Shown: positions 2,665 to 27,443 of the stretch, one piece after another
Numbering within the stretch: position 1 is the first letter of the stretch
Layout of the letters: every line of letters starts with the position of its first letter
NCBI RefSeq assembly: GCF_000025625.1
Contig: NC_013922.1
Coordinates: forward strand, 3,038,001 to 3,102,000
Length of the DNA: 64,000 nucleotides
Origin: Natrialba magadii ATCC 43099
Lineage (GTDB): Archaea > Halobacteriota > Halobacteria > Halobacteriales > Natrialbaceae
Direction: 5' to 3'
Made by a program: the position numbers and the translations under genes
The notes under the pieces: model-generated
What the model was told of the DNA's origin: nothing
Databases searched by the model: none
What the model saw: the letters and a program-made list of their open reading frames with translations, nothing else

Positions 2665-3386
2665 GCCGATTCCACTCGATACAGCGGCTGCGAGAGCGAA
2701 CGGACAGAGCCGACGCAGAAGTGGTGGCGGTGGCGATCGTCGGGCTGGGCAGTCTGCTCACCGTTTCGGTGATCGCGCTTGGCGGCTATCTGCCGACAGC
2801 CGGCTCGTGGGGCGTCTCGATACTGTACCCGCTTGCACTCCTGTTCCCGGTGTTCGGACTCGCCATACTCGGAGTCACGTTCTGGTGGGTGTTGAACACG
2901 CGATACACCACACCGGAGCCGATTCACCGCGGTGGGGCCCCCGAGGAGGGAGAGCTTGGAAGACTCGAACCCGTCGGCCGCAGTACGGCCCACTCCCTCG
3001 AGATCGCCGCACACGCCCAGTACCGGTGTAGCGCGTCCAGTTCGGCCCACGAGATACGGTCTCGACTCATCGAGAGCGCTGTTCGCGTCGTCCGGACGAG
3101 ACGCGGACTCGACCGCGAGACGGCCCGCGAACAGGTCGACGACGGGACGTGGACCGACGACCCGGTCGCCGCAGCGTTCCTCTCAGCTGATCGGCCACAA
3201 CCCCTCGGCGAGCAACTCCGGAACGCGCTGGACCCCGGTGTGGCCTACTACCGGCGCGTTGATCGGACGATTTCAGCGATCGAGAACGTTGACACCGACA
3301 GTGGCGCTACGGCGAGCGACCGTGGCGGGTCGGCGACGGCGATTACGACGGACGAGGAACTCGAGTCCGGTGAGGTGAGTCGATGA
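2661..3386 (+). CDS. Two-helix membrane protein of the MoxR/DUF58 operon (DUF7269-like)
   Basis: This 241-residue protein has two adjacent membrane helices (about residues 24-45 and 53-77). A cytoplasmic region follows, containing an RHxE-poor helical segment with many Arg and Asp residues. The ATG start overlaps the previous stop (ATGA), and the stop overlaps the DUF58 start in the same way. It has no catalytic motif I recognise. Proteins of this size and topology occur at this place in haloarchaeal MoxR/DUF58 clusters and are annotated as DUF7269; that assignment is from memory of the context, not from a search. Confidence 0.75.
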   Translation: MSRFHSIQRLRERTDRADAEVVAVAIVGLGSLLTVSVIALGGYLPTAGSWGVSILYPLALLFPVFGLAILGVTFWWVLNTRYTTPEPIHRGGAPEEGELGRLEPVGRSTAHSLEIAAHAQYRCSASSSAHEIRSRLIESAVRVVRTRRGLDRETAREQVDDGTWTDDPVAAAFLSADRPQPLGEQLRNALDPGVAYYRRVDRTISAIENVDTDSGATASDRGGSATAITTDEELESGEVSR

Positions 3387-24783: not shown

Positions 24784-25443
24784 CTACCCGTTCGTCGTCA
24801 ACTCCCAGCCGCGCTCGGTCCGCTGAACGATTCCTTCGTCGGCCATCGACTCTAACAGCTCCGCGATAACCTCTCGCGGCGCGTCGAGTTCCCGACCCAG
24901 CTCACCCACCGACTTCGGTTCCGTCCGAATCGTCGCCAGCAAGTCGGCGTAGATTCGACTCTCCGGGCCAGCACCGACGCTTTCTGAAATTTGATCGAGC
25001 ACGTCGTACAGCTGGCTCTGCACCCAGCGCTGTGCCAGCGACAGTTCGTTCTCGAGTTGTTCCAGTTCGTCGAGTGCGCCAAGCAGTTCGTCGAGTTCGT
25101 CGAGTTCGTCACAGGCGATGTCGAGAGTGAGGTGGCGGCAAGTAGTGATATCGAAGCTGTTGTTGGTCGGATAGGCGCTCTTGCTGGCGAAGCCGTAGGG
25201 AGAGACCGTGACCTCGAGGCGGATGTTGCGGGCGATATGGAAGTACTTCCGGCGCTGGTCGTCGACGCGGCTCTCGATCAGACCGGCCTCCTCGAGTTTG
25301 CGGAGGTGTTCGATAACTGCCTTGGGACTGACGCCGATGTATTCAGAGATTTCAGTCACGTAACAGGGTTTGCGAGCGAGGAGGCGGAGGATACGCCTCC
25401 GGTTCTCGTTACCCAGTAGATCCAACAAAGCGGCAGAGTCCAT
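24784..25443 (-). CDS. ArsR-type winged-helix transcriptional regulator
   Basis: A 219-residue protein from the ATG at 25443. The N-terminal winged helix (about residues 1-75) has LLGNENRRRILRLLARKPCYVTEISEYIGVSPKAVIEHLRKLEEAGLI, a clear ArsR/HTH pattern. A central part with a Leu/Glu/Asp heptad-like stretch (DELDELDELLGALDELEQLENEL, about 115-137) looks like a dimerising coiled coil; a second small winged helix lies at about 160-219. The longer open frame to 25545 lacks support. Ligand and targets unknown. Confidence 0.88.
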   Translation of the reverse strand: MDSAALLDLLGNENRRRILRLLARKPCYVTEISEYIGVSPKAVIEHLRKLEEAGLIESRVDDQRRKYFHIARNIRLEVTVSPYGFASKSAYPTNNSFDITTCRHLTLDIACDELDELDELLGALDELEQLENELSLAQRWVQSQLYDVLDQISESVGAGPESRIYADLLATIRTEPKSVGELGRELDAPREVIAELLESMADEGIVQRTERGWELTTNG

Positions 25444-25689
25444 CGTGGGAGGATAAGGTATCACCGCGGAAAAGCGTGTCTGCTCGGTGGAGGAGGCGTG
25501 AACCACTGGCACAGGAACGGACCAGTACGAGATCCCGATCGGCAACGCAACCGGTGAGTTGACCAGCAGACGGGGAGGTGAATAGACGGGGCCGAGCCCC
25601 CGTATCTGCCCGCAGGAACCGGTTTGGCGCCCACCAAATTCGGATGTGGGTTTAACTTACCCCTTCCTCATGCTCTGATTACAGAGACG

Positions 25690-26054
25690 ATGTCCACGCT
25701 TCCGCCCTGGATCGAGAACCGGATTGAACACAGTCTCGACAAAAAGCTCACACAGCGTCACGTGGTCGAGATAATGCTCAACGCTGAGCGGCCGTACTTT
25801 TCAGCCGAACAGATTCGCGCTCGAGTTCGTCCTGATAGAGATACGAGCGCATACCCCCGCCTTCCCGTGAGTGACGAGTGTTCCGACGCTCTGTCGGAAC
25901 CGAGGAACGAACAGGCGGGGGTATGCGCTCGTATCTCTATCACGGGTCTGAACGGTCGTCCGTCCGCCGCTGTCCACGCTGTGACTTCCGAACGACTGAT
26001 CCGGAATACGAGTTCTGTCCCCGTGATGGGGCGCGATTGCGAGTACGAAAGTGA
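25690..26054 (+). pseudogene. Small zinc-ribbon DNA-binding-type gene split by an inverted-repeat element
   Basis: The 5' part (25690-25832, frame starting ATG at 25690) encodes MSTLPPWIENRIEHSL... with a helix-turn-helix-like stretch (TQRHVVEIMLNAERPYFSAEQIRAR). The 3' part (25943-26054, another frame) encodes a zinc ribbon with CPRCDF and EFCPRDG and a stop at 26052. A 110-bp palindromic element (25833-25942) lies between them. Removing exactly these 110 bp rejoins the two parts in one frame with no stop and gives an 84-residue protein. As it stands, the plus frame runs through the element to a different end at 26152 without the zinc ribbon, so the original product is not made. Confidence 0.7.
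25833..25942. mobile_element. 110-bp palindromic MITE-like element
   Basis: Two 29-bp arms (25833-25861 and 25914-25942) are perfect inverted repeats. Between them is a 52-bp centre containing a second hairpin (GTTCCGAC at 25880-25887, GTCGGAAC at 25893-25900, 5-base loop). No target-site duplication is evident. There is no coding capacity, so a miniature inverted-repeat or IS200/IS605-end type element is likely. Its length (110, i.e. 2 mod 3) explains the frame difference between the two halves of the disrupted gene. Confidence 0.75.
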
Positions 26055-26123
26055 CGGCTCTCGAGCACCGAACACGGGAACGACCACTGACCGTCTCTCT
26101 CCGCTGAACTCGGCACGGCGCTT

Positions 26124-27443
26124 ATGTGCGGTCGCGGAGAACAGCCAGCAGTGAACGAGGTCGCGTTGCAAATCGGCGATGCACCACTCGACGAGACGGT
26201 CGTCCGGATCGCACTCGCCGGTGCGCTCGGTATGTTTCTCGGACTCGAGCGCGAGTGGTCCCAGAAGTCTGCAGGCATTCGGACGTTCTCGCTGATCAGC
26301 CTGCTCGCTGCGGTTTTTACGATTCTCGTCCTCGAAACCGATGTTGGAGAGGGGCTGCTCGTTCTCGGCGGGCTGCTCGTCATCGTCCAGGGCGTCTTAC
26401 TTGCGGTGCAGGGGCTACTCGGCGACGAGGACGCCGGTCTCTCGCTCACCACGTCGGTGTCGATGCTCGTCGCCTACGGCGTCGGCTCGCTCGTCGCGGC
26501 CGGCTTCATTATCGAGGGCGTCACCGTCGCCGTCCTTTCGTCACTCTTGCTCGTCCTCAAACGCGAACTCCACGAGTTCGCGTGGGGACTCACCCGCGAG
26601 GAGATGCGCTCGACGACCGAGTTCGCCATCCTCGCGTTCGTCATCTATCCGCTCTTGCCGGCCGAAGCCGCCCTCGACCTCGGTGCGGTGACGATCCCGC
26701 TCGAACCGCAGGTGATCTGGCTCATGGTCGTCGCCGTCGCCGGCATCGGCATCGTCAACTACGCCATCGTCTCCACGTATGGCGGGCGTGGCATCGCCGT
26801 TACGGGCTTTTTCGGCGGCCTCGCCTCCTCGACGGCCGTCGTCGGCACGATGCTCGACCACGTCCGCCAGCGACCCGAAGCGGCCTCGTATGCCGTCGCC
26901 GCCATCTTGCTCGCCAACGCCGCAATGGCTGCCCGCAACCTCGCGATCGCAGTCGGGTTCACGATGGGAACCGAGTCCGGTATTCTCTTCGAAGCGATCC
27001 TCCCCCTCGGCGCGGTCATCGTGATTGCGTTCGCAATCGCCGGTCTCACCGCCGACTGGCGAGAGTCCGGTTCGATGGAACTCGAGAGCCCCTTCTCGAT
27101 GAAGAACGCACTCGCGTTCGGCGCCGTCTTCCTCGTCGTGCTCGTCTTCGGATCGCTCGCCGAAACCTGGTTCGGCACCCTCGGCTTCTACGCGACCGCC
27201 GTTGCGAGCGGCTTCGTCTCGAGTGCCGGTGCGACCACGTCCGCCGTGGTGCTCTATCGGGGCGGCCAGCTCAGCGCGCCGGAGGCAACGATCGCGATCT
27301 TGCTCGCGACCGTCTCGAGTATCGTCGTGAAGGCGATGCTGGCGGCGACGTCGATGAACAAGAGTTTTCGGAATCAGATTGCCGTGTACAGCGTCCTCCT
27401 CTTGCTGGGTGGCGCGGCAGCGGTGCTCGTCATCGTTGTGTAA
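26124..27443 (+). CDS. MgtC/SapB-DUF4010 membrane protein
   Basis: A 439-residue polytopic protein. The N-terminal MgtC/SapB domain (about residues 25-150) has the LGMFLGLEREWSQKSAGIRTFSLISLLAAV motif, followed by a DUF4010 part with GIGIVNYAIVSTYGGRGIAVTGFFGGLASSTAVVGTM and a matching GFVSSAGATTSAVVLYRGGQLS repeat near the C-terminus. About 12 helices. An in-frame GTG at 26151 is an alternative start. MgtC-like proteins are linked to Mg2+ or phosphate stress in bacteria; the role in haloarchaea is unknown. It lies just after the disrupted zinc-ribbon gene. Confidence 0.9.
   Translation: MCGRGEQPAVNEVALQIGDAPLDETVVRIALAGALGMFLGLEREWSQKSAGIRTFSLISLLAAVFTILVLETDVGEGLLVLGGLLVIVQGVLLAVQGLLGDEDAGLSLTTSVSMLVAYGVGSLVAAGFIIEGVTVAVLSSLLLVLKRELHEFAWGLTREEMRSTTEFAILAFVIYPLLPAEAALDLGAVTIPLEPQVIWLMVVAVAGIGIVNYAIVSTYGGRGIAVTGFFGGLASSTAVVGTMLDHVRQRPEAASYAVAAILLANAAMAARNLAIAVGFTMGTESGILFEAILPLGAVIVIAFAIAGLTADWRESGSMELESPFSMKNALAFGAVFLVVLVFGSLAETWFGTLGFYATAVASGFVSSAGATTSAVVLYRGGQLSAPEATIAILLATVSSIVVKAMLAATSMNKSFRNQIAVYSVLLLLGGAAAVLVIVV

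Follow-up and report, generated by a model that had tools for sequence, protein, structure and literature searches.

A left-end/left-end scar of an ISH12-like IS200/IS605 element at a breakpoint of a 715-kb inversion in Natrialba magadii

The palindrome and the two genes beside it

The analyzed DNA of Natrialba magadii, a stretch of 64 kb that we call the window, contains a 110-bp palindrome at positions 25833-25942. The initial annotation located it correctly and described it as an element recently inserted in one small gene. The question is whether the locus indeed carries such an insertion or the trace of a different event. The perfect arms are 30 nt long (25833-25862 and 25913-25942), rather than 29 bp as first given, and are separated by 50 nt. 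As had been described, the center carries its own 8-bp hairpin with no assigned strand (25880-25900), GTTCCGAC-GCTCT-GTCGGAAC, in which GTTCCGAC occupies 25880-25887 and GTCGGAAC 25893-25900 as read from the sequence; the same hairpin is present in the loop of ordinary left ends of insertion sequences (IS) in relatives. The palindrome is the sole inverted repeat in the window with exact arms of at least 16 bp and a loop of at most 80 bp, and 20 shuffles of the window yielded none by these criteria. In an Rfam scan of three loci, no family reached its curated threshold.

If the 110 bp are skipped, a stop-free frame of 84 residues stays open to a CPRC...CPRD motif that ends at 26054, as originally noticed, but the fused gene occurs in no relative: an uninterrupted 84-residue homologue is absent from all 61 genomes. 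Homologues match either residues 1-57 or residues ~49-84, never both. The flanking coding sequences are thus broken, as proposed, but they belong to two genes, and the in-frame fusion is accidental, because the homologues show these genes, A and B, to be separate. A 5' fragment of gene A lies at 25690-25836 on the plus strand and is cut at ...RARVRPD. In relatives, the gene A product is about 200 aa long, has an HTH-like N-terminus, and contains hydrophobic segments; four genomes (G004, G005, G017, and G025) match residues 1-56 at 70-79%, and the intact gene runs on as PDVSKETVRLRLNELRE past the cut point. A 3' fragment of gene B, with a membrane segment and the CPRC...CPRD zinc ribbon, lies at 25939-26054 on the plus strand; the full gene has about 85-92 codons in relatives. 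Neither gene has a Pfam match.

The missing 5' part of gene B is located 715 kb away, on the minus strand of contig 1 of the same genome (G000) at about 2,348.41-2,348.56 in kb on the contig scale (L068 9907-10100), where the first 50 residues of B adjoin a PadR gene. Joined at the IS target, the distant 5' part and the sequence from 25939 onward give a full-length B in frame. A single small gene with an insertion is ruled out by the split homologue matches and by this distant 5' part. Four genomes from other genera have B flanked by a PadR-like regulator on one side and, on the other, by a homologue of the gene that starts at 26124 of the window. The C-terminal part of gene A was not found in its own genome (best match E = 0.44). 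Past the distant breakpoint, the sequence instead enters the 3' part of gene C (DUF4870), the downstream neighbor of gene A in relatives; the 3' part of A and the start of C, about 1.16 kb in G004, have been lost there.

Reciprocal breakpoints of a chromosomal inversion

The gene order in relatives shows that the palindrome lies at one of two breakpoints of an approximately 715-kb chromosomal inversion, present only in this genome among the seven of the genus. All six congeners connect the left flank of the palindrome to one side of the distant site and its right flank to the other. In these genomes, the window sequence continues up to about 25501 and is followed by a spacer of about 0.6-0.8 kb and then, in reverse, by the left flank of the distant site; correspondingly, the right flank of that site is followed, after at most 0.2 kb, by the window from 26102-26111 onward. 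For example, the congener contig G001 C30 aligns in the same direction with 2.794-2.808 Mb on one side of the breakpoint and in reverse with 2.238-2.225 Mb on the other. Beyond the other breakpoint, G001 C35 likewise aligns in reverse with 3.260-3.240 Mb. These checks covered both inversion arms at distances of 14-300 kb from the breakpoints. The two junctions, each with IS sequence, are reciprocal, and the ancestral adjacencies are intact in relatives, the one on the B side also in other genera. The inner side of the window breakpoint is marked by an HTH regulator gene upstream (24784-25545, minus strand), which in congeners adjoins the sequence that here lies left of the distant breakpoint; the outer side is marked by the gene for a 439-aa membrane protein downstream (26124-27443, plus strand), which directly follows PadR-B in relatives.

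Several observations concern the neighbors of these breakpoints. The window segment 59710-59980 resembles the PadR-like gene beside the 5' part of B (about 70% DNA identity) and belongs to a paralogous regulator. The gene pair A-C (HTH/membrane protein and DUF4870; window 25601-25836, L069, L070, and L071) is found in G004 and G005 on contigs other than that of the corresponding locus, has no match in the 0.6-kb spacer of G001, G003, and G006, and seems to travel as a small block. A sequence of ~79 bp just past the end of gene C (L068 9577-9655; contig 1, given as ~2,348.08-2,348.15 Mb) recurs in many haloarchaeal genomes at 83-94% identity and is probably another IS1341-type remnant; its region has a sub-threshold match to RF02656 sot0042 (34.8 bits vs. 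a cut-off of 88).

One IS end twice at each junction

The sequence of the palindrome identifies its source. The first 90 bp (25833-25922) match left ends of IS in relatives at 90-98%, and the DNA outside is unrelated. In complete copies, the genes for TnpA (Y1 transposase, PF01797, E 4.5e-38) and TnpB (PF07282, E 1.6e-17) lie inward of this end, and the H17 copy is annotated as IS200/IS605. The source has the features of that family: a Y1 (HUH) TnpA, often with TnpB, in the complete relatives; subterminal hairpins, which differ in sequence between the left and right ends; no terminal inverted repeats; and insertion 3' of a short fixed target with no target duplication, also at the right end. 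Read inward from gene A, the plus strand at 25837-25922 consists of the left tip, AGAGATACGAGCGCAT, followed by the left-end hairpin. The stem of the latter (25913-25922) is shared with a second, inverted left tip that faces gene B on the minus strand (25913-25938), so that positions 81-110 of the palindrome match left-end tips on the other strand. The target TGAT precedes the left tip in six of the seven copies (TGAC in the remaining one). Here it occupies 25833-25836 on the gene A side, and its reverse complement ATCA, at 25939-25942 on the minus strand, is part of gene B; hence TGAT flanks the scar on both sides. The IS-derived part is 25837-25938, and the element ends claimed to the base in the initial annotation thus included the two 4-bp targets. 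Nine ordinary copies have perfect left-end arms of 7-10 bp vs. 30 bp here, because past the stem the sequence runs back out through the second, inverted tip and ends with ATCA.

A corresponding structure is found at the distant breakpoint, where contig 1 carries a 40-bp palindrome at 2,348,366-2,348,405, TTGACCTCCTCCTCCGCG-TTCA-CGCGGAGGAGGAGGTCAA. Complete IS copies end with ...CCTCCGCGTTCACGCGGAGGAGGAGGTCAA, and this palindrome is therefore the right end run back out through a second inverted tip. Over both junctions, each of the four IS tips is preserved to the last base. Window positions 25837-25938 are thus a left-end/left-end scar of an ISH12-like IS200/IS605 element, and the distant palindrome is the right-end/right-end scar. 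Of the two gene B parts, one borders a left-end tip and the other, at the second junction, a right-end tip; the same is true for genes A and C. Hence, one IS resided in B and one in A, the latter reaching C after the deletion.

The closest known system is ISH12 (= ISH1.8), an IS200/IS605 element of Halobacterium salinarum and phages phiH and ChaoS9. It is annotated in phage phiH, encodes an IS200-type TnpA and an IS1341-type TnpB, and has a left-end module 93% identical to positions 24-90 of the palindrome. However, its outer tips and right end differ, so the source of the scars was a related IS and not ISH12 itself.

The assignment of the 110 bp to known classes follows from the same data. 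Having two left-end tips and no right end, the palindrome is itself a scar rather than a member of the IS200/IS605 family. It resembles the PATEs of haloarchaea, transposase-free IS605-type remnants made of end palindromes, in which the core was deleted at palindrome stems (PMC3119063). However, PATEs combine one left and one right end palindrome in collinear DNA, whereas here each scar contains one kind of end twice, at two inversion breakpoints, and the flanks are not collinear with relatives. Nor is it a MITE: it occurs as a single copy, and its parent IS has no terminal inverted repeats. The other genomic copies envisaged initially were not found, either in this genome or in 60 relatives. 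Pattern scans of genome contigs and viral contigs, exact except for IUPAC letters, so that diverged left-left scars could escape them, and covering collections that may omit this genome, yielded neither a second 110-bp copy nor a left-left scar.

These data leave almost no probability for the explanation proposed initially, the recent insertion of a mobile palindrome of 110 bp (a MITE, PATE, or small mobile repeat) into one small HTH/zinc-ribbon gene. The perfect arms and the frame that stays open once the 110 bp are skipped would agree with it, and Haloquadratum is known to harbor ~110-bp small mobile repeats that bear terminal inverted repeats and lack a target duplication (PMC3119063). But the two flanks belong to different genes, the other part of B being 715 kb away, the sequence itself combines an IS left end with an inverted tip and lacks a second copy, and the lack of any uninterrupted homologue together with the reciprocal breakpoint refutes such an insertion. 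What stands from the initial proposal is that this is DNA of a mobile element that looks recent and is unique to this genome. Also very unlikely is an assembly error that falsely joined sequences at hairpins. Chimeric joins can arise at hairpins, and the junctions are known here from the assembly alone; however, an artefact would have had to produce two exactly reciprocal junctions, both preserving their IS tips to the base, in an assembly of four contigs with a completeness rating of 99.9%, and a full-length IS with the same left end, which could represent the true junction, is absent from the assembly.

Origin of the inversion

Homologous recombination between direct repeats leads to a deletion, and between inverted repeats to an inversion, with a whole IS kept at each junction. 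The left-left and right-right scars are consistent with neither outcome, and tracing the orientations back shows that the two IS copies were direct repeats on the ancestral chromosome. An ordinary homologous inversion between oppositely oriented copies that later decayed is accordingly highly improbable, even though this is the usual type of IS605-linked inversion, reported for Helicobacter pylori (PMC8002640), and the L-region of phage phiH is an invertible segment flanked by ISH1.8 (PMC6210493). It predicts a whole IS at each junction, bounded by unlike ends (one left, one right), whereas only left-left and right-right combinations are observed. The Helicobacter case is similar in that IS605-group elements lie at the breakpoints of a large chromosomal inversion (PMC8002640), but there the copies are inverted repeats and homologous recombination suffices, whereas the present copies were in direct orientation and have lost their interiors. 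Similarly, the invertible L-region of phiH has ISH12 on one or both sides (PMC6210493); whole copies flank that segment, and only end scars are left in N. magadii.

The mechanism that we infer is joining of like ends. One IS would have inserted after TGAT in gene A and another after TGAT on the other strand in gene B, in direct orientation. Breaks in both copies may then have been repaired by joining like ends: since the subterminal hairpins are self-complementary, single strands of the two left ends could anneal via their ~10-bp stems, and those of the two right ends likewise. Such like-to-like joining of direct copies would necessarily invert the intervening DNA. The IS interiors may have been lost in the same step or soon after, when longer and unstable palindromes collapsed at these stems, and a further deletion would be needed to account for the about 1.16 kb lost at the distant breakpoint. 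The existence of short derivatives of this IS family, 421-426 bp long (L083 and L085), indicates that the two source copies may already have lacked transposase genes. Taken jointly, the reading of the locus as a left-end/left-end scar with a reciprocal right-end/right-end scar of the ~715-kb inversion, produced by like-end joining between direct copies, is in our view well on the probable side. Against this history, no known strain has both IS copies in place in the uninverted order, so the intermediate is inferred. The additional deletion required at the distant breakpoint and the failure of the scans to find a left-left scar elsewhere also count against it.

A two-step version fits the data as well as one-step annealing. 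In this scenario, an illegitimate break-and-join inside the two direct IS bodies would have produced long inverted IS repeats at both junctions, which later collapsed to the two minimal palindromes by slippage between stems. The stem sequences are repeated in the direct order required, and repeat-mediated core deletion at IS605 end palindromes has been documented in Haloquadratum (PMC3119063). However, two independent collapses, both stopping exactly at the minimal hairpin, are required, and the intermediate is known from no strain. We regard this version as a real but lesser possibility.

Like-end joining departs from the usual view, in which IS-made inversions arise from oppositely facing copies: here, a 715-kb inversion came from same-facing copies, whose own bodies were lost. 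What remains is two short perfect palindromes, which are unlikely to be listed by IS annotation. We propose only tentatively, as a conjecture with the balance somewhat against it, that the self-complementary end hairpins of IS200/IS605 elements generally provide sites of annealing through which pairs of direct copies give rise to large inversions, with a diagnostic pair of scars and no need for inverted repeats. If the route is general, inversions seemingly without breakpoint repeats could be traced via left-left and right-right end scars. The scar pair also offers a testable model for hairpin ends at broken chromosomes. We found no report of left-left or right-right scars in the literature, a search that left most subscription journals outside, and exact-pattern scans of the collections and relatives gave no left-left scar elsewhere.

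Related palindromes and modules in other genomes

Seven of 392 genomes contain a right-right palindrome. The palindrome in G094 adjoins a sequence that is repeated in many genomes and, read by eye, resembles the TnpB C-terminus; tblastn with one TnpB gave no match there, and the palindrome may be a natural right end. An isolated right-right palindrome from a related IS, TTGACATCCTCCTCCGCGTTCACGCAGAGGAGGATGTCAA, is present in the Natribaculum breve plasmid CP095391.1 at 469082-469121 (L109/L111) and also in G298. The plasmid copy has no tnpA or tnpB match within 1.5 kb and lies between a hypothetical gene, itself beside an AAA-ATPase-type gene, and a Fic-family gene. Its left neighbor gene has 84-85% similar counterparts in Natrarchaeobaculum and Natronorubrum; in the former, the counterpart is followed by the gene for an IS4-family transposase. 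The Natribaculum palindrome could be another such scar.

The 110-bp query has matches in 30 of the 61 genomes, many of them over positions 24-90 only. The central part of the palindrome (window 25863-25912) belongs to a ~60-bp module (TTCCCGTGAGTGACGAGTGTTCCGAC....GTCGGAACCGAGGAGCGAACAG) that is common to the left ends of otherwise different IS605-type elements of haloarchaea (L044-L058) and is also found in ISH12 of phage phiH (L148 around 2982-3070). The related left ends L060 and L132 have a simple hairpin without this module, which therefore resembles a spreading insertion within the hairpin loop.
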